A DNA stretch of 64,000 nucleotides from Solirubrobacteraceae bacterium. Lineage in GTDB: Bacteria > Actinomycetota > Thermoleophilia > Solirubrobacterales > Solirubrobacteraceae. This document shows positions 3,975 through 13,188 of the stretch, one piece after another. The stretch spans positions 62,001 through 126,000 of the forward strand of contig JAPSGI010000006.1 in assembly GCA_031177685.1 (NCBI GenBank), in the 5' to 3' direction. The position numbers were made by a program, and so were the translations under genes. Numbering within the stretch: position 1 is the first letter of the stretch; each line of letters starts with the position of its first letter. The notes beneath the pieces are model-generated. The model searched no databases. It saw only the letters and a program-made list of their open reading frames with translations, and was not told where the DNA came from.

Positions 3975-4360
3975 TGGAGCCCGGCGAGGCGATTCCCGAG
4001 CTGCGCGTGACACCGGACAAGTACGTGACCTACCGCTACGCCGGCGCGTCGGGGGACTTCAACCCGATCCACATCGACGAGGAGTTCGCGCGCGCCGTCG
4101 GGCTGCCGGGCCGGATCCTGCACGGGCTGTGGACGATGGCTCAGGTCGCCCGCGCCGCCGAGCAGGTCGCGGGCGACGACCCCACCGCGCTGCGCCGCCT
4201 CTCGGTCCAGTTCCGCGGAATGGGCGCGCTCGAGCAGGAGATCGCGGTCACCGGCACGGTGCGCGAGGCCGGGGACGGCACCGCCACGCTGGAGCTGGAG
4301 GCCGAGCAGGACGGCAAGCGGATCATCCGCAACGCCGAAGCGGACATAGCCGTCTCCTGA
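3974..4360 (+). CDS. MaoC-like dehydratase, HadB-type catalytic subunit
   Basis: The 128-residue hot-dog protein has the full hydratase motif: S-G-D-F-N-P-I-H-I-D followed by the F-A ... G-L-P-G-R-I-L-H-G-L-W helix, including the catalytic Asp and His of R-specific enoyl hydratases. It overlaps the HadA-like gene by one base, which argues for translational coupling and an equimolar heterodimer, as in HadAB of mycobacteria. The reaction would be interconversion of (3R)-hydroxyacyl and trans-2-enoyl thioesters. Length is normal for a single hot-dog domain. Confidence 0.88.
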   Translation: MEPGEAIPELRVTPDKYVTYRYAGASGDFNPIHIDEEFARAVGLPGRILHGLWTMAQVARAAEQVAGDDPTALRRLSVQFRGMGALEQEIAVTGTVREAGDGTATLELEAEQDGKRIIRNAEADIAVS

Positions 4361-4395
4361 GCGGTTCCGTCCGGGGGGCGCTCCACCCTGCGGGC

Positions 4396-4578
4396 GTGGT
4401 CCATGTCCTGCTCTCCTGCCACGACTCGCGCTGCACGTCGGTGTACGAGGCGTACGGCGCCCTGGAGGACGTGGCGGCGCTGGCCTGCGAGTGCGGGTGC
4501 GCGCTGCAGATCGTGCGCGACCTCGGCGACGCCCGGGACGCTCCGCGCCCGCTCGAGCTGATCCGGCTCGCCGCCTAG
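4396..4578 (+). CDS. Small cysteine-rich hypothetical protein
   Basis: A 60-residue frame from GTG at 4396 to TAG at 4578 fills the gap between the HadB-like gene and hrcA. It has five cysteines in two clusters: C-H-D-S-R-C near the start and C-E-C-G-C in the middle, a spacing that would suit a metal or disulfide site. Codon third positions are strongly G/C, as in real genes here. I recognise no family. The start is uncertain and no strong ribosome site is visible. Confidence 0.5.
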
Positions 4579-4595
4579 GCCCTCGTACGCCTTCG

Positions 4596-4601
4596 TACAA
4601 T
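4596..4601 (+). promoter_or_regulatory. -10 box of hrcA, leaderless layout
   Basis: TACAAT ends six bases before the GTG start of hrcA at 4608. A transcript starting about seven bases after the box would begin at the start codon. No CIRCE inverted repeat (the usual HrcA operator) is visible around it. Confidence 0.55.
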
Positions 4602-4607
4602 CGTCGC

Positions 4608-5618
4608 GTGCTGAGCGAACGCCAGGAGCTGATCCTCCGCAAGGTGGTGGAGGGCCACCGGGACCTCGGCGTCCCCGTCGCGTCCAAGGTGCTGGCGGAG
4701 GACCCGGAAATCGACTGGGGACCCTCCACGGTCCGCCACGAGCTGGCCGTGCTCGAGGAGCAGGGCCTGCTGGCCCATCCCCACACCTCGGCGGGCAGGG
4801 TGCCGACCGACGCGGGCTACCGCTACTTCGTGGACCGGCTGCTGCCCGCGGCGCCGCGCACGCGCCTCGCGCTGACGCTCGTGCGCCGCGAGGTGGACAC
4901 CGCCATGCGCGTGACCACCGAGACGCTCTCCCAGGTGACGAGCCTGCTCTCGATCGTGTCCGCGCCGTCGCTGCAGACCGCCACGGTCCGCCACGTCGAG
5001 GTGCTCGTCCTGCAGCCCCACGTCCTGATGGTCGTCGTGATCACGTCCACGGGCGGCGTGACGAAGCGGCTGTTCACCTTCGAGTCGCCGATCGACGCGG
5101 GCCTGTCCGATTGGGCGGCGGAGTACCTCAACGAGCGCCTCGTGGGCCTGGGACTGGGCGCGCGGATGCTCGGCCAGCGCCTGAGCGACCCGCAGCTGCC
5201 CGTGCGCGAGCGCACGTTCCTGGAGCGGCTGGCGCCCGCCTTCACCGAGCTCGACGAGGGCGCCCGCGACACCCTGTACGTGGAGGGCGCCGCCCGCCTG
5301 CTGCGCGAGGAGCGCTTCCAGGACCTCTCCGAGCTGCACGAGCTGATGGCGATGCTGGAGCGCCGCGTCTCCCTGCTCGGCGTCCTGCGCGCGGCGCTGG
5401 ACCAGCGCGACGTGTACGTGCGCATCGGCGCCGAGAACGAGCGGCCCGAGCTGCGCTCGCTCTCCGTGGTCGCCGCCGCGTACGGGCTGCCGCGCCGCAG
5501 CCTCGGCACGGTGTCGGTGATCGGCCCGACGCACATGGACTACGCCACCGCGATCCACTCCGTCCGCGACGCCGCGCTGCAGCTCTCGCGCTTCGTCGAG
5601 GACGTCTACGACGAATAG
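4608..5618 (+). CDS. hrcA: Heat-inducible transcription repressor HrcA
   Basis: The 336-residue protein starts with the HrcA winged helix ([15 protein letters not shown] ... [18 protein letters not shown] ... [10 protein letters not shown]-x-G-Y-R), followed by the GAF-like dimer domain and the C-terminal I-G-P-T-H-M-D-Y block. HrcA represses chaperone genes by binding CIRCE. It is three bases upstream of dnaJ, the common hrcA-dnaJ arrangement. GTG at 4608 is the start because it follows the -10 box at the leaderless distance and begins the conserved domain. Confidence 0.96.
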
Positions 5619-7571: not shown

Positions 7572-7985
7572 ATGAGCCCCGATCCCGAGCTCGATCTCCT
7601 GCGCCACGCGATCGAGAGCTTCGACGAGCAGATGCACGCGGGCCGGGTGGGCGACTGGTTCCATCCCGAGTGGACGGAGATCGTGCCGCTGCGCGCCGAT
7701 CTGGAGGGCATCACCTTCGCCGGCCCCGACGCCCCGCGCGAGTTCGTGGCCGCGGCGCGCGAGAGCTGGGAGTCACTGCGCTTCGAGGTTCGCGAGATCC
7801 GCCGCGTCGGGTCGGTGGTGTTCGCGCGCGTCCACCTGCACGCCCGTTCCCGCGAGGCGGCGGTGGAGGTCGACCAGGACTTCGGCGTGGTGGCCAGCTT
7901 TCGCGACGGACGGATCTCCCGGATGCACAGCTATACGGATCCCGACGCCGCGCGGGTGGCTGCGGAGGCGGCTGAGGAGCGTTGA
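7572..7985 (+). CDS. NTF2-like / SnoaL-like protein
   Basis: The 137-residue protein has the alpha+beta cone pattern of NTF2-like proteins: an N-terminal helix with F-D-E-Q-M-H-A-G-R, W-F-H-P-E-W-T-E and a closing antiparallel sheet with R-I-S-R-M-H-S-Y-T-D. Family members range from isomerases to polyketide cyclases and carriers, so no substrate can be named. The ATG at 7572 follows a GAGGGG stretch and sits five bases after prmA. Its stop overlaps the TTG start of the next gene. Confidence 0.75.
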   Translation: MSPDPELDLLRHAIESFDEQMHAGRVGDWFHPEWTEIVPLRADLEGITFAGPDAPREFVAAARESWESLRFEVREIRRVGSVVFARVHLHARSREAAVEVDQDFGVVASFRDGRISRMHSYTDPDAARVAAEAAEER

Positions 7986-9445
7986 CGGTGCTCGACGCGG
8001 CCGTCGTCGGCGCGGGCCACAACGGCCTGGTCGCCGCCGCGTACCTGGCCCGCGCGGGCCTGTCCGTGGAGGTGTTCGAGCGCCGCGACGTGGTCGGCGG
8101 CGCGTGCGTCACCGAGGAGCTGTGGCCGGGCGTGCGGGCCTCGCCTGGCGCGTACACGCTCTCCCTGCTGCGCCGCGAGATCATGGCCGAGCTGGACCTG
8201 GCGTCACACGGCCTCGACGTCCACGTACACGAGCCCTACCTGTTCGCCCCCCTGCCCGACGGGCGTCGGGTCGTCACGTGGTCGGACCGCGCCCGCACGC
8301 ACGAGCAGCTGGCGCGCGAGTGGTCGCGCGCCGACGCCGGCGCGTACGCGGCCTGGGCGGACCGCTGGGAGGCCGCCGCCGCGCGGGCCCGGCCGCTGAT
8401 GCTCCAGCCGCCGGACCGCGAGCGCTGGCTGGCCGCGATCGGGCCGGAGATCCTCGACGGGTCGATCGCCGCCGAGCTGGCCGCGATCCCGTCGGAGCCC
8501 GTGCGGGTCCCCTTCGCGATCCAGGGCCTGATCGGCACGCTGGCGGCGCCCGACGACCCCGGCACCGCCTTCGTCGCCTTCTACCACGACCTCGGCGAGG
8601 CGGCCGGACCGCCCGGCGCCTGGGGCTACGCCCGTGGCGGCATGGGCGCGGTCACCGCCGCCCTGCGCGCCGCCGCCGAGCAGGCGGGCGCCGCCGTCCG
8701 CACGGAGACCCCGGTCGAGCGGATCCTCGTCGCCGACGGGGTGGCGCACGGCATCGTGCTCGCGGACGGCCGCGAGGTTCGCGCCCGCGCCGTCCTCTCC
8801 AACGCCGATCCGCTTCGGACGTGCGCGCTCGCCGGCCTCCCCGCGCCCGAGGGCTGGCGCCAGGAGGGGCCGACGGTGAAGGTCATGCTCCTGCTCGACG
8901 GGCTGCCCGACTTCCCCGCCTGGCCGGGACCCGAGCCGTGGGCCGGGACGATCGACGTCGGCTTCACGCTCGACGACCTCACCGTGGCCGCGGCGGACGC
9001 GCGCGCCGGCCGCCCCGCCGCGCGACCCTGGATCGAGGCCTCGTGCCAGACCGCGTCCGATCCTACGCTCGTCCCGGACGGCCGCCACGTCCTGTCGATG
9101 TTCTGCCAGTGCTTCCCCGCCGACGTGGACGCGGACGCCGCCGCGGACGCCGCGATCGCGCGCTTCGCCGAGGTCTGCCCGCAGCTGCCCGACCGCATCG
9201 TCGACCGCCTCGCGCTCGGCCCGCGCGAGCTCGAGGCGCGCTTCGGCATCACCGGCGGCCACATCTTCCACGGCGAGATGCTCCCCGGCCAGCTCCTCGA
9301 AGACCGCCCCGGCGCCCGCCGCTTCGGCGGCGTGGAGAGCCTCTACCTCGCCGGCTCGGGAGCCCACCCCGGCGGAGCCGTCACCGGCGCCCCCGGCTAC
9401 CTCGCCGCCCAGGCCGCGATCACCGACCTCCAGGGGACTTTGTGA
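7982..9445 (+). CDS. Phytoene-desaturase-like FAD oxidoreductase, PYROXD2 type
   Basis: The 487-residue protein has a GxGxxG dinucleotide motif (G-A-G-H-N-G) at residues 10-15 followed by the E-V-F-E-R-R-D-V-V-G-G-A acid-tipped strand. The C-terminal G-G-x-x-F-H-G-E-M-L-P-G-Q-L block and A-G-S-G-A-H-P-G-G-A-V-T-G-A-P-G-Y match NAD(P)/FAD-dependent oxidoreductases of the PYROXD2/carotenoid desaturase-like group. The substrate is unknown. TTG at 7982 overlaps the preceding stop (TTGA); GTG at 7988 is a possible alternative. Immediately downstream lies the left end of a transposable element. Confidence 0.87.
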   Translation: MTVLDAAVVGAGHNGLVAAAYLARAGLSVEVFERRDVVGGACVTEELWPGVRASPGAYTLSLLRREIMAELDLASHGLDVHVHEPYLFAPLPDGRRVVTWSDRARTHEQLAREWSRADAGAYAAWADRWEAAAARARPLMLQPPDRERWLAAIGPEILDGSIAAELAAIPSEPVRVPFAIQGLIGTLAAPDDPGTAFVAFYHDLGEAAGPPGAWGYARGGMGAVTAALRAAAEQAGAAVRTETPVERILVADGVAHGIVLADGREVRARAVLSNADPLRTCALAGLPAPEGWRQEGPTVKVMLLLDGLPDFPAWPGPEPWAGTIDVGFTLDDLTVAAADARAGRPAARPWIEASCQTASDPTLVPDGRHVLSMFCQCFPADVDADAAADAAIARFAEVCPQLPDRIVDRLALGPRELEARFGITGGHIFHGEMLPGQLLEDRPGARRFGGVESLYLAGSGAHPGGAVTGAPGYLAAQAAITDLQGTL

Positions 9446-9458: not shown

Positions 9459-9460
9459 GT

Positions 9461-9490
9461 GGCCTCCGGCACTATCCCCTTGACGCAAGG
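9461..9490 (+). repeat. Left terminal inverted repeat
   Basis: This 30-bp end starts GGCCTCCGG and finishes GACGCAAGG. Its inverse copy is at 11776-11805; mismatches are at repeat positions 5, 9, 10, 19 and 25. It contains an inward TTGACG. Confidence 0.9.
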
Positions 9491-9496
9491 GGCCGC

Positions 9497-9502
9497 TACC
9501 AT
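9497..9502 (+). promoter_or_regulatory. -10-like box before the membrane passenger gene
   Basis: TACCAT lies eight bases before the ATG at 9511, in the leaderless layout. The TTGACG inside the left repeat (9480-9485) is only 11 bases upstream, too close to be a normal -35. Confidence 0.35.
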
Positions 9503-9510
9503 CGCCATGG

Positions 9511-10161
9511 ATGGGCCGTCTGTGGTCAGCCGTGCTCAGGCTCCTGGGAGGCGTCGGCCTCCTGCAATCCGCGATCTGGTCGCTCGGGCTAATGTCGGGC
9601 GCGTTCGCCGCCGGGTTCGCCAACTTCCCGCTTGGGTTTCGCATCGCCCTGGGGATAGGCGTCGCGGGTTTCGTGGTAAGTGCGGCCGGGTTGGCTGTGC
9701 GCCACGTTCCAGCGTTGCAGGGCCTAGGGCGGTCTACCGCCCCCGAGACACTCGGTTTCACAGGTGGGCCCCTGCCATTGGAGCGCGAGTTGCGGCAGGC
9801 CATCGGCGCGGTGCTCGGCGACTTGGAGCGGGTGCGGAGCCGCATGGAGCGCGGCTTAGAGGATCGCGCGTGGTGGCGGCCGTCAAATGCGCTGGGTGTC
9901 GTTATGTGGGACGAGTACGGCGACCGGATCAACGAACAGGGCCACCATGACGAGCACGCGCTCGCGAGGACCGCCGTTCGGCTGTGGGAGGAAGTCAATG
10001 ACGACGCCAAGAAGGCTTGGGAGACCTTCAATGTCCATTACCAGTTCGAACTGCCAACGGGGCTGACCCCAGGGATGGACGCAGACGCGATCCAGCGAGT
10101 CGAAAGGGCAGCACTCGCGTGCCACGCGGCCGAATCCGCGCTGGATCGGATTCAGCGATGA
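9511..10161 (+). CDS. Transposon passenger: two-helix membrane protein
   Basis: The 216-residue protein has two hydrophobic segments (about residues 8-35 and 42-63) and then a soluble, charged C-terminal domain of about 140 residues with an R-A-W-W-R-P-S-N-A-L-G-V-V-M-W-D-E-Y-G block and helical stretches. I do not recognise a family. It starts 21 bases inside the left repeat and runs up to a convergent XRE-type regulator gene five bases away. Its position inside the element and its softer codon bias mark it as cargo. Confidence 0.65.
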   Translation: MGRLWSAVLRLLGGVGLLQSAIWSLGLMSGAFAAGFANFPLGFRIALGIGVAGFVVSAAGLAVRHVPALQGLGRSTAPETLGFTGGPLPLERELRQAIGAVLGDLERVRSRMERGLEDRAWWRPSNALGVVMWDEYGDRINEQGHHDEHALARTAVRLWEEVNDDAKKAWETFNVHYQFELPTGLTPGMDADAIQRVERAALACHAAESALDRIQR

Positions 10162-10165
10162 CGGC

Positions 10166-10402
10166 TCAGCGGTCCAGCTTGTCCGCCTGCTTGACCAGCT
10201 CGACCATCGACACCCCGAGTCCGGAGGCGATGTTCTTGACGGTGGACCACGTTGGGTTTGACAGCCCGCGTTCCAGGCGCGAGAGCGTGCCGGTCGTGAT
10301 CCCGGCGGAGTGGGCTAGGTCCTCTTGGCTGATCGCCTTCTTGGCGCGCAGCCTGCGGATCGCCTCGCCTAGCGCCGGTTGGGCCTGTGAGGGAAGTCCC
10401 AT
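10166..10402 (-). CDS. Transposon passenger: XRE-family HTH regulator
   Basis: The 78-residue protein is almost only a Cro/C1-type helix-turn-helix: L-G-E-A-I-R-R-L-R-A-K-K-A-I-S-Q-E-D-L-A, then G-I-T-T-G-T-L-S-R-L-E-R-G, then P-T-W-S-T-V-K-N-I-A. It should bind DNA as a dimer. It points away from the promoter and small gene at 10446-10641, so it may control that divergent region and perhaps transposition. Helix-turn-helix passengers are known in some IS1595-family elements. Confidence 0.85.
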   Translation of the reverse strand: MGLPSQAQPALGEAIRRLRAKKAISQEDLAHSAGITTGTLSRLERGLSNPTWSTVKNIASGLGVSMVELVKQADKLDR

Positions 10403-10445
10403 GCAGACGGGACGCTGCCGGGTGCGAGCGATTCAGTCCAGGCTA

Positions 10446-10473
10446 TTGACGACTTGCGCTCAATCGCTAGGAT
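10446..10473 (+). promoter_or_regulatory. Sigma70-like promoter inside the transposon
   Basis: TTGACG (10446-10451) and TAGGAT (10468-10473) are 16 bases apart, a good housekeeping-type promoter. It reads toward the 44-residue gene at 10507 and lies in the divergent gap next to the XRE regulator, so it is a likely target for that repressor. Confidence 0.6.
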
Positions 10474-10506
10474 ACGTTCGGGGTGCGGGACGAGGAACTA
10501 ACGCGC

Positions 10507-10641
10507 ATGTGGGACCTACTCGAAGTGCTCGATCAGGAGCTGACCAGCACGTACCCCGACTGGCAGCGGGTCAGGGCGGCAGCGAAGGAGCTGTTGCGCG
10601 GCGTGCGCCGCGCGATGCGGAGACGCCGGCTGCGCCGCTAG
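10507..10641 (+). CDS. Transposon passenger: small basic peptide
   Basis: A 44-codon frame runs from ATG 10507 to TAG 10641. A GAGGA ribosome site (10492-10496) and a strong promoter lie upstream. The peptide has an acidic/amphipathic first half (M-W-D-L-L-E-V-L-D-Q-E-L) and a very basic tail with many Arg. Its stop overlaps the transposase stop on the other strand by three to four bases. No family is recognised. The strong upstream signals argue that it is expressed. Confidence 0.55.
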   Translation: MWDLLEVLDQELTSTYPDWQRVRAAAKELLRGVRRAMRRRRLRR

Positions 10642-11597
10642 GGGTGGCCGTGGCGCTCCATGCGCCGCTTGACCTGACGCATCTCACGTTCGCTGATCCC
10701 TCCCTTGGTGATCGGGACTCGCTCGATCAGCTTGCGGTACGGCAGGGCGTCGCCGTGGAGCATGACCAGGAGGGTGTCGCGGAACAGGTAGGGGTTCTCG
10801 CGCCGGTTGAAGCGGAACTCCATCTCGTCCAGGTAGGCGGGCAGGTGCTTGACGCTGATCTGGTGGTAGGTGCCGATCACGCCCCGCTTGAACAGGCTCC
10901 AAGCCGACTCCATCGAGTTCGTATGCACGTCGCCGCGAACCCACTCCTCCGCCGCGTGCTTGACCGTCTCGTGGCGCGTGTCGCTGTCAGCGATGCCCTC
11001 ATAGCCGCCCCACTCGTCGGTGTAGATCGCTTCGGTGTCCGGGGCGACCGTCTCCCCGATGAAGTTGTGCAGCGTTTCGCGGCCCCGGTTGGAGACGAGA
11101 CGAAGCCGAATCTGGCCCCCGCGCTCGATCGCGCCGACGACGCTGGATTTGTTCGCCTGATACCCGGCGCCCATGCCGGGGCGCTTGCCGCCGATCAGCG
11201 TTTCGTCCACTTCCACGATGCCCCGGAGCAGCGGCTGTTCGTCGTCGCCCATCGCGTCGCGGATGCGGTGCGCGAGATACCAGGCCGTCTTGTAGCTCAC
11301 GCGCAGCATGCGCTGAAGCTGCTTGGCGCTCATGCCCTTCTTGGACTCCCCGATCAGGTAGATCGCCAGGAACCACTTCCACAACGGCAGGTGCGAGTCG
11401 TGGAACAGCGTCCCGGCCGTCACCGAGAACTGGTAGCGGCATGAGTCGCAATCGAACTGGTTGCGCTTCACGATGCGCGAGATGGTGGTGCCCTCGCAAC
11501 GCGGGCACACCACGCCATCGGGCCAGCGCAGGGCTTCCAGGTAGGCGCGGCACTTGTCCTCGGAGCCGAAGCGCTCGATCAACTCCGGCAGGTTCAT
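10638..11597 (-). CDS. IS1595-family transposase
   Basis: The 319-residue protein has an N-terminal zinc ribbon (C-P-R-C-E-G ... C-D-S-C-R), the H-L-P-L-W-K-W-F-L-A-I-Y-L helix, and the ISXO2-like DDE catalytic domain: V-D-E-T-L-I-G-G-K, the second Asp in Y-T-D-E-W-G-G-Y, and N-S-M-E-S-A-W-S-L-F-K-R-G ... Y-H-Q-I-S-V-K-H-L. The frame is intact, so the element may still be active. ATG 11597 is preferred because it starts at the usual distance from the zinc ribbon; the frame is open back to GTG 11642. A near-consensus promoter in the right terminal repeat reads into it. Confidence 0.95.
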   Translation of the reverse strand: MNLPELIERFGSEDKCRAYLEALRWPDGVVCPRCEGTTISRIVKRNQFDCDSCRYQFSVTAGTLFHDSHLPLWKWFLAIYLIGESKKGMSAKQLQRMLRVSYKTAWYLAHRIRDAMGDDEQPLLRGIVEVDETLIGGKRPGMGAGYQANKSSVVGAIERGGQIRLRLVSNRGRETLHNFIGETVAPDTEAIYTDEWGGYEGIADSDTRHETVKHAAEEWVRGDVHTNSMESAWSLFKRGVIGTYHQISVKHLPAYLDEMEFRFNRRENPYLFRDTLLVMLHGDALPYRKLIERVPITKGGISEREMRQVKRRMERHGHP

Positions 11598-11615
11598 CTC
11601 GGAGGTCACAGGCAC

Positions 11616-11771
11616 ATGCCTAGACGCAAGAAGCCCCCACACGAACTCACCACGGACGAGGCGCTACGCAAGTTGTTCCCCAAAGAAGTCCGCGAATCAG
11701 CAAAGAAAGAAGCGCGAAAGGCCAGCAAGGAAGGGGAAAAGAAGGACACTAAGAAGGATTCTAGGGAGTGA
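11616..11771 (+). CDS. Transposon passenger: small Lys-rich protein
   Basis: A 51-codon frame runs from ATG 11616 to TGA 11771, just before the right terminal repeat. GGAGG (11601-11605) is ten bases upstream. The peptide opens M-P-R-R-K-K-P-P-H-E-L-T-T-D-E-A-L, then L-F-P-K-E-V, and ends in a Lys/Glu-rich tail. It is divergent from the transposase with only 18 bases between the starts. From memory, similar short 'R-K-K-P-P-x-E-L-T-T-x-E-A' peptides accompany IS1595-type transposases, but I cannot check this here. Role unknown; DNA or RNA binding is a guess from charge. Confidence 0.7.
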   Translation: MPRRKKPPHELTTDEALRKLFPKEVRESAKKEARKASKEGEKKDTKKDSRE

Positions 11772-11786
11772 TCTACCTTGTGTCAA
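11758..11786 (-). promoter_or_regulatory. Transposase promoter in the right terminal repeat
   Basis: Reading leftward, TTGACA (11786-11781) lies inside the right repeat and TAGAAT (11763-11758) just inside the element, with a 17-base spacer. This is the best sigma70 match in the window and it drives the transposase. Transposase binding at the repeat could therefore repress its own gene. Confidence 0.75.
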
Positions 11787-11805
11787 AGGGATAGTATCGG
11801 TGGCC
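11776..11805 (-). repeat. Right terminal inverted repeat
   Basis: The inverse copy of 9461-9490, matching at 25 of 30 bases. Read inward it begins GGCCACCG and ends GACACAAGG. Confidence 0.9.
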
Positions 11806-11823
11806 TCATGGCCCGGCGGGGCC

Positions 11824-11835: not shown

Positions 11836-13188
11836 ATGGCATGGCGCATCGTCATCGCGGGCGGGGGGTTCGGCGGTCTGTACGCCGCGCGGGAGCTGGA
11901 GCGGCTGCTGCCGGCGCAGTCGGCGCGGATCACGCTGGTCAACGACGTCAACTTCATGCTCTACACGCCGCTGCTGCCGGGCGCGGCGGCGGGGACGCTG
12001 GAGCCGCGGCACGTCGTCGTGCCGCTGCGCGAGGAGCTGGACCGCACGGACCTGCGGCTGGGGTGCGTGACCGGCGCGCGGCCCGAGCAGCGCTGCCTGA
12101 TGGTCAAGACGCTGGAGGGACACTCGGAGGCGATCGAGTACGACCACCTGGTCGTGGCGCTCGGCTCGGTGTCGCGCACGCTCCCGATTCCCGGGCTGGC
12201 CCAGCACGCGATCGGCTTCAAGACGCTGTCGGAGGCGATCGCGCTGCGCAACCGGGTCGTGCTGTCGCTGGAGATGGCGGAGACGCTAGACGACCCCGAG
12301 GCGCGCGCCGCCTACCTGAGCTTCGTCTTCGTCGGCGGCGGCTACTCCGGCGTGGAGGGGCTGGCCGAGCTGCAGGACTTCGCCGCCGACGTGATCGAGC
12401 AGTACCCGCGCTGCCGGCTGCAGGGCATGCGGTGGATGCTCGTGGAGGCCGCCGAGCGGCCGATGATGGAGGTCCCGCCGAGCCTCTCGGACTTCACGAT
12501 GCGCGAGCTGCGCCGGCGCGGGATCGAGCTCCGCGTGGGCCACACGCTCGAGCAGGTGACCGATCGCAGCGCCACGCTGTCCACCGGCGAGGTGGTCCCC
12601 ACCCGCACCGTCGTGTGGACCGCCGGGGTCAAGCCGCATCCCATCGTCGGACGGCTCGGCCTTCCGCTGACCGAGAAGGGACGCATCCGGGTCGACGAGT
12701 TCATGCAGGTGGCGGGCTACGACCACGTCTGGGCGATCGGCGACGCGGCGGCGGTCCCCGACCCGGCGCGCCCGGGCCAGCCCTGCCCGCCCACCGCCCA
12801 GCACGCGCTGCGCCAGGGGCGCACCGTCGCGCGCAACGTGGCGGCCGCGATCGGCGGCGGCCGCAAGCGCCCCTTCCGCTACCGCACGCTCGGCGTGTTC
12901 GTCGACCTGGGCCGCCACCAGGCGGTGGCGCAGACGCTCTTCGTGCGCTGGAGCGGATTCCCCGCCTGGTTCCTCGCCCGCACGTACCACATGCTCGCCA
13001 TGCCGGGCGTGAAGCGGCGGCTGCGGTTGATCGTGGACTGGACGGTGGACCTGCTGTTCGCGCGCGATGCCTCGGAGCTGGGCCAGCTCGGGCATCCCCC
13101 GTCGCTGGAGCAGGAATCGCCCCATGCGCTGATCGAGCAGAGCGCGGGCGGGACCCCCGGAACGGAGCCGGCTCGCACCGGGGCCTGA
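11836..13188 (+). CDS. ndh: Type II NADH dehydrogenase (NDH-2)
   Basis: The 450-residue flavoprotein has two dinucleotide folds: G-G-G-F-G-G at residues 9-14 for FAD and F-V-G-G-G-Y-S-G-V-E-G near residue 160 for NAD(P)H. The T-x-x-V-x-W-T-A-G-V motif and the A-I-G-D-A-A-A-V FAD-site motif follow, and a C-terminal amphipathic region would dock it on the membrane. NDH-2 passes electrons from NADH to quinone without pumping protons. It now starts 31 bases right of the transposon. Confidence 0.9.
   Translation: MAWRIVIAGGGFGGLYAARELERLLPAQSARITLVNDVNFMLYTPLLPGAAAGTLEPRHVVVPLREELDRTDLRLGCVTGARPEQRCLMVKTLEGHSEAIEYDHLVVALGSVSRTLPIPGLAQHAIGFKTLSEAIALRNRVVLSLEMAETLDDPEARAAYLSFVFVGGGYSGVEGLAELQDFAADVIEQYPRCRLQGMRWMLVEAAERPMMEVPPSLSDFTMRELRRRGIELRVGHTLEQVTDRSATLSTGEVVPTRTVVWTAGVKPHPIVGRLGLPLTEKGRIRVDEFMQVAGYDHVWAIGDAAAVPDPARPGQPCPPTAQHALRQGRTVARNVAAAIGGGRKRPFRYRTLGVFVDLGRHQAVAQTLFVRWSGFPAWFLARTYHMLAMPGVKRRLRLIVDWTVDLLFARDASELGQLGHPPSLEQESPHALIEQSAGGTPGTEPARTGA

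Follow-up and report, generated by a model that had tools for sequence, protein, structure and literature searches.

A transposon lies within the 64,000-bp stretch of DNA analysed here (the window), which is taken from a Solirubrobacteraceae bacterium (assembly GCA_031177685.1, contig JAPSGI010000006.1, positions 62,001 to 126,000). The complete element occupies positions 9467-11799 and is 2,333 bp long. Read from left to right, it holds genes for a 216-aa membrane protein and an XRE/Cro-type regulator, a short basic open reading frame (ORF), the gene of an IS1595-family transposase and the gene of a Lys-rich 51-aa peptide; a PYROXD2-like FAD oxidoreductase gene and ndh stand on its two sides (Table 1). 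A preliminary description, made from the letters alone, had placed at 9461-11805 an IS1595-type element that carries passengers and an intact transposase. This assignment was confirmed, and all of the ORFs listed in it were present. The 51-aa peptide was backed by conservation, whereas the short basic ORF had no independent support: no homologue was found for it, and its status as a coding gene is uncertain.

Table 1. Coordinates of the element's features and of the adjoining host genes in the window
Feature	Position	Strand	Remarks
PYROXD2-like FAD oxidoreductase gene, host flank	7982-9445	+	77% identical counterpart, then ndh, in L055
Target-site duplication, left copy	9459-9466	.	GTGGCCTC; exact repeat of 11800-11807, outside the inverted repeats
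Terminal inverted repeat, cargo side	9467-9490	+	CGGCACTATCCCCTTGACGCAAGG; top match in the window of the matrix from other elements
Candidate -10 hexamer TACCAT	9497-9502	+	Next to the inner edge of the cargo-side repeat; cargo start codon follows after 8 nt; motif only
Cargo gene, 216-aa protein	9511-10161	+	Two hydrophobic N-terminal helices and a helical domain; no known family
78-aa XRE/Cro-type regulator	10166-10402	-	HTH_3, E 6.6e-14; convergent with the membrane-protein gene
Sigma-70-like promoter pattern upstream of the short basic ORF	10446-10473	+	TTGACG-N16-TAGGAT, 9/12; consensus match only
Short basic ORF	10483-10641	+	52 aa from GTG 10483, 44 aa from ATG 10507; stop TAG shares CTAG with the transposase stop
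IS1595-family transposase	10638-11597	-	ATG 11597, frame open to GTG 11642; DDE_Tnp_IS1595, E 4.6e-37; Zn_ribbon_IS1595, E 1.7e-15
51-aa Lys-rich companion peptide	11616-11771	+	Divergent from the transposase; homologues in at least 33 loci; pooled pN/pS 0.24
Candidate transposase promoter	11758-11786	-	-35 TTGACA 11786-11781 inside the repeat, 17-bp spacer, -10 TAGAAT 11763-11758; 11/12
Terminal inverted repeat, transposase side	11776-11799	-	CGATACTATCCCTTTGACACAAGG
Target-site duplication, right copy	11800-11807	.	GTGGCCTC; same 8 bp as the left copy
Type-II NADH dehydrogenase (ndh), host flank	11836-13188	+	Pyr_redox_2, E 7.5e-48

Limits, ends and insertion site of the element

The element is bounded by terminal inverted repeats of 24 bp that match at 20 of 24 positions (9467-9490 against 11776-11799), and a perfect 8-bp target duplication is present on both sides. 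The preliminary description had given 30-bp ends with 25 matches (9461-9490 against the reverse complement of 11776-11805); the count was right by eye, but six of the 30 columns belong to the target duplication. For the ends, a weight matrix was derived solely from those of other elements, the two ends in the window being excluded. When run over both strands of the 64 kb, it placed 9467(+) first with 24.1 and 11799(-) second with 16.5, the next best position reaching 10.4. Since an independent matrix ranked both ends first and second, the match of the window ends is more than chance. The element had a GC content of 0.65, the flanks one of 0.75, and an Rfam scan of the element region gave no match.

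An empty site between the PYROXD2-like gene and ndh, for which the preliminary description had proposed a search in relatives, was found in L055, from the same family as the host. In L055 the PYROXD2-like gene was 77% identical and ndh followed about 70 bp on, with no element between them. The natural empty site and the perfect duplication show that the element was inserted as a single unit. The transposon at 9467-11799 is real.

The transposase contains the ISXO2-like/IS1595 DDE domain (PF12762), over the cut-off, and an N-terminal zinc ribbon (PF12760). The IS1595 catalytic pattern E-x-DE ... YTD ... H-x-N-x-x-E ... K, used here as given for ISApl4 (PMC12561309), was present as VEVDE, IYTD and HTNSMESAWSLFK, and residues D131, D194, N227 and E230 were invariant across the alignment of the clade's transposases. 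Judged by its sequence, the transposase is an intact IS1595-family enzyme, and the inverted repeats and 8-bp duplication are those of the family. The membrane-protein and XRE genes lie between a single pair of insertion sequence (IS) ends, which is the arrangement of a transporter IS (tIS). One transposase was present inside the element and one copy of the element was found in its genome (whole-element DNA search), so the organization is not that of a composite transposon. The element is probably still mobile.

Constant module and cargo slot across the clade

Relatives were gathered by transposase searches, which gave about 45 close loci from Thermoleophilia, Rubrobacteraceae, Chloroflexota and Myxococcota metagenome-assembled genomes (MAGs) and from viral contigs. 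Many of the loci come from MAGs or from a viral collection, contigs of which may be bacterial, and the loci are related by descent, so that counts across elements are not counts of independent events. Both ends were placed in 37 loci, comprising 22 with an 8-bp duplication (window copy included) and 15 others whose ends were set by the end matrix or by hand; the ends of some elements were thus placed without an exact duplication. The 22 complete elements were 1.66-3.06 kb long, with the end consensus CGGGATTATATACTTGACACAGGG. In a tree of 80 transposases, all rows with a companion peptide were contained in one fork of 45 rows (support 96/96). Among more distant IS1595 relatives, some were bare elements (989-1,095 bp) and some carried cargo.

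In the clade, the transposase-side end, a basic companion peptide and the transposase formed a constant module, and the cargo gene, which occupies the interval from the transposase stop to the far repeat, differed in almost every element. Close pairs were 72-85% identical in DNA, and this identity ended at or just before the transposase stop; where both far ends were available, similarity resumed in the last 22-38 bp only. In L038 and L039, an identity of 85% extended over 1,076 bp and ended 29 bp short of the transposase stop; beyond that point only the last 28 bp matched. The corresponding values were 80% over 1,141 bp and then 38 bp for L141/L143, and 77% over 1,127 bp, with a break about 30 bp from the stop, and then 26 bp for L139/L141. 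In L141/L143, L077/L078 and L078/L079 the similarity broke within a few bases of the stop. In L035/L114 and L035/L045 the break came some 80 bp ahead of the stop in L035, whose cargo ORF extends 91 bp into the transposase there. The cargo DNA itself was without similarity in close pairs, the sole exception being 63 bp in L040/L142.

Related cargo was rare (L041/L081/L145, L120/L141, L125/L130 and, weakly, the window and L116), and the L041/L081/L145 group was spread over separate transposase branches. When a profile made from the cargo of this group alone was run against 400 Chloroflexota genomes, two matches were obtained, one of which was a training member. The second lay in a further such element, L154, whose ends were of the clade's type and which had a perfect TGGGACGA duplication and a companion peptide. 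This one independent case supports, but does not prove, that the cargo family is confined to these elements. No match to the L145 and L141 cargo families was observed in plasmids. These comparisons suggest that the cargo slot was refilled repeatedly in the history of the clade. In L154 itself (4298-4971) the transposase was broken into two frames; its ends, duplication, companion peptide and cargo ORF were intact.

The preliminary description had regarded the passengers as one gene set, and had proposed rejecting the element if no further copies with these ends and passengers existed. The combination of membrane protein, XRE regulator and 44-aa ORF was indeed present in no other element, but the same kind of ends recurred, with other cargo in the same slot. 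That the set does not recur reflects an exchangeable cargo and does not speak against the element. The Lys-rich peptide had also been counted as a passenger; it belongs instead with the transposase, which it accompanies as a conserved peptide in this clade. A simple pattern recovered homologues in the same position in 33 of 48 loci, and further ones were seen by eye. Companion peptides in the clade were basic and 40-60 residues long, and the homologues of the Lys-rich peptide shared the core E-L/M-T-T/S-D/E-E-x-x-x-x-L/V-F-P-K-x-V. The ratio of non-synonymous to synonymous substitution rates (dN/dS) was 0.03-0.41 in 14 close pairs. A six-frame comparison was made on eight pairs with pooled ratios of non-synonymous to synonymous differences (pN/pS); the peptide's own frame had the lowest value (0.24) and no stop. 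The mirror frame, an open frame on the opposite strand, came second with 0.33 and six stops and was rejected as a true gene, and the other four frames had 1.27-2.20 and more stops than the mirror frame. The conserved position, the low dN/dS and the six-frame comparison indicate that the companion peptide is a real gene of the transposon core, under purifying selection. An AlphaFold2 (AF2) model of the 51-aa peptide showed two helices, at residues 13-20 and 23-47, with a predicted local distance difference test score (pLDDT) of 79. The peptide may act as a DNA-binding or transposase-binding accessory.

Promoter-like motifs recurred at both ends of the elements. On the transposase side, most elements had TTGACA inside the repeat, followed after 17 bp by TAnnnT; a strong -10 match at a spacing of 15-19 was present in 35 of 37 elements, compared with 18% of shuffles. 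On the cargo side, 30 of 37 elements (6.5 expected) had TAnnnT at a distance of 28-41 bp from their end, and 23 of these had a start codon within 3-10 nt beyond it. The cargo start codon usually lay 30-50 bp from the element end. We infer that the predicted promoters work, and the cargo-side motifs suggest that cargo transcripts are leaderless. The cargo-side repeat was also considered as the source of a -35 hexamer at a fixed spacing; this was rejected, spacings of 11-12 and of 16 both being observed.

Cargo proteins and their possible role

At least one hydrophobic helix was present in the first 100 residues of 31 of 37 cargo ORFs (automatic choice), compared with 22 of 139 flanking ORFs; because the loci are related, a Fisher test of this contrast does not deal with independent events. 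A two-helix hairpin was observed in 30 of the 37 after hand correction of three wrong automatic picks (L075, L082 and L138). The picks in L122, L140 and L143 are doubtful, and the hairpin threshold was lenient (1.2); L125, which is counted, is probably not a membrane protein. The density of Lys and Arg was 0.135 in the tail, 0.067 in the loop and 0.142 after helix 2. By charge, the topology is probably N-in/C-in, with the variable domain cytosolic. The cargo proteins were 115-439 aa long with domains of differing kinds, and among 20 cargo proteins of relatives none had a Pfam family over the cut-off. The cargo of L113 (4899-5807, on a viral contig) matched the candidate defence family PDC-S42 at 1.1e-73. 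NF053583 (LAPAL 'putative phage structural protein', 7.5e-67) and phrog_3243 were each matched by one member of the cargo set, probably L113. The cargo proteins of L125 (2426-3412) and L130 (5307-6317) were homologous and about 50% identical; by eye they looked Ntn-hydrolase-like (proteasome-like), and no Pfam match was obtained for L125. Two further relatives, L150 and L151, had no adjoining clade transposase within the stretch examined.

For the 216-aa membrane protein of the window, no relatives were found in 249 genomes of the class, in plasmids or in viral contigs. It had no PADLOC match and was not assigned to a defence family; likewise the membrane-protein gene and the XRE gene beside it were not assigned to a toxin-antitoxin system, the membrane protein having no family match in Pfam, PADLOC, PHROGs or NCBIfam. 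In a more distant relative, L129 (5544-6498), an XRE protein stood beside a 142-aa ORF, a pair that looked toxin-antitoxin-like by eye.

We consider it likely that the element is a tIS of one IS1595-family clade, with a constant part and a variable cargo slot that has been repeatedly refilled. The constant part, about 1.1 kb, consists of the transposase-side end, the companion peptide and the transposase, with the -35 hexamer of the predicted transposase promoter inside the terminal repeat. The transposase would act on both 24-bp repeats, so that the whole unit moves and an 8-bp duplication is left. The slot usually holds one gene, read towards the transposase and often behind a -10-like hexamer, and would have been refilled mostly with proteins in which an N-terminal two-helix membrane hairpin is joined to an unrelated cytosolic domain. 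In the window it contains the 216-aa membrane protein and the XRE regulator, which is special to this copy and may, most simply, act as a repressor of some of the cargo; the 44/52-aa ORF may also belong there. The element with its ends and duplication, the companion peptide, the break at the module's edge and the architecture of the cargo are plain from the sequences. Several points weigh against this interpretation. The element is single-copy in its genome and no transposition was seen. The cargo-side -35 spacing is inconsistent, and the -10 motif alone is supported there. Helices were called by hydropathy alone and the flanking control ORFs were called mechanically; some cargo (L113, L125/L130) is not of the membrane type. 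As to cargo function, the 216-aa protein had no match in Pfam, PADLOC, PHROGs, NCBIfam or PDB, and its AF2 prediction (three sequences; pLDDT 50) was too poor for a fold search.

An ordinary tIS that captured neighbouring genes at random, with a common membrane architecture of no special meaning, would also account for some of these data. Several kinds of passenger are known in IS1595 and IS66 elements (PMC3129680, PMC5704250, PMC12888890), a few elements of the clade (L113, L125 and L130) have non-membrane cargo, and cargo ORFs often run 4-91 bp into the transposase in antisense, as a truncated captured gene would. We nevertheless think random capture rather unlikely. It predicts host genes of known families, which the 20 relatives' cargo proteins did not yield; the same two-helix N-terminus was present in 30 of 37 cargo proteins, and the sole new match of the cargo-only search sat in another such element. 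It is very improbable that the cargo is one orthologous gene that lost its similarity through fast evolution, with no cassette exchange. Position, orientation and mostly the two-helix architecture are the same, as such a gene would require, but pairs that are 80-85% identical in the DNA of the constant part have no cargo similarity, the related cargo of L041, L081 and L145 occurs in well separated transposase branches, and the cargo lengths and domain kinds differ widely.

Within the reading of a repeatedly refilled slot, the likeliest role of the cargo proteins would be that of membrane-anchored effectors deployed in conflicts with phages or mobile elements of other kinds. We advance this role tentatively; it would explain the rapid exchange and orphan status of the cargo. 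As anti-phage effectors or exclusion proteins, again a tentative proposal, they would sense infection with the cytosolic domain and damage or block the membrane with the hairpin, and the XRE regulator would keep expression low. The N-in/C-in hairpin with a cytosolic domain, the rapid exchange, the orphan status, the PDC-S42 match of L113 and the many clade copies on contigs of the viral collection fit this proposal, and defence cargo is known in Tn7-like transposons (PMC8649781). However, L113 was the only scanned cargo that strongly matched a defence model, its protein is without the membrane hairpin and probably also matches the phage-structural-protein model, and the window copy is located among housekeeping genes, outside any defence island. 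The cargo could instead serve the transposon itself, by excluding sister copies, controlling transposition or addicting the host through a membrane toxin and an XRE antitoxin. XRE regulators are common antitoxins, the XRE gene adjoins the membrane-protein gene, and the presence of one clade copy per genome is usual; these points favour such a role. We still judge it unlikely, because no XRE homologue was found in the cargo slots of other clade elements, no toxin family matched the window membrane protein, and a low copy number may merely reflect low activity or MAG assembly.

It is conceivable, though we would not press the point, that this widespread IS1595 clade is a one-gene cassette platform, with a fixed slot and a built-in start, that circulates a large and otherwise unseen pool of two-helix membrane effectors, probably conflict proteins, among distant phyla, much as an integron does but by transposition. 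If the cargo pool is real, the ends and the transposase mark the slot, and each new element would yield one orphan membrane-protein gene with defined limits. Such elements would also be a compact system for asking how a transposon swaps cargo between the transposase stop and the terminal repeat, and what role the conserved basic companion peptide has.

Known systems and further observations

Where PMC3129680 and PMC8101967 cite Siguier, Gagnevin and Chandler (2009), IS1595 elements with passengers are known as transporter IS. The element shares with these the IS1595 DDE domain, the N-terminal zinc ribbon, 8-bp duplications and passengers between the repeats. Unlike them, the present clade has a conserved basic companion peptide and one slot with mostly orphan two-helix membrane proteins. 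tISCpe8 and MTnSag1 are IS1595-type integrative and mobilizable elements, and tISCpe8 carries lincomycin resistance (PMC5704250). An IS1595-family transposase, repeats of about 25 bp, an 8-bp duplication and passengers are common to them and to our element, in which, however, no resistance or mobilization gene was seen. In ISPa75-fosZ, a tIS66, the left part is 90-93% shared with other elements and the passenger lies downstream of the transposase (PMC12888890). A common left part and a differing passenger behind the transposase are also found in the present clade, but tIS66 belongs to another IS family, has an enzyme as passenger and has no recurrent membrane architecture reported. Tn7-like transposons likewise have a variable cargo region; they are larger and have more machinery, whereas elements of this clade have a single transposase and, as a rule, one cargo gene. 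Neither the companion peptide nor recurrent membrane cargo was found described in the literature, ISfinder and the 2009 family paper being outside the search. Passengers themselves are already known for IS1595, but orphan membrane cargo that can be exchanged, together with a conserved companion peptide, looks, provisionally, new for this family.

The stop codons of the transposase and of the ORF facing it overlap in a palindromic CTAG or TTAA in several elements, the window copy among them (CTAG, 10638-10641). In other elements the cargo ORF enters the antisense strand of the transposase 3' end by up to 91 bp. In L036 (788-4276, on the contig shared with L077) three small hydrophobic ORFs and, by eye, an IS5-like transposase ORF were located behind the IS1595 transposase; no duplication is common to its two ends, and it is perhaps a nested insertion. 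In another IS1595 subgroup of the same class, small ORFs of 45-46 aa adjoin the transposase in L020 and L023. In this subgroup, too, the cargo proteins of L017 (2715-3578; 287 aa) and L023 (2555-3355; 266 aa) looked alike by eye, and the stretch 'NARSALDH' was present in both.

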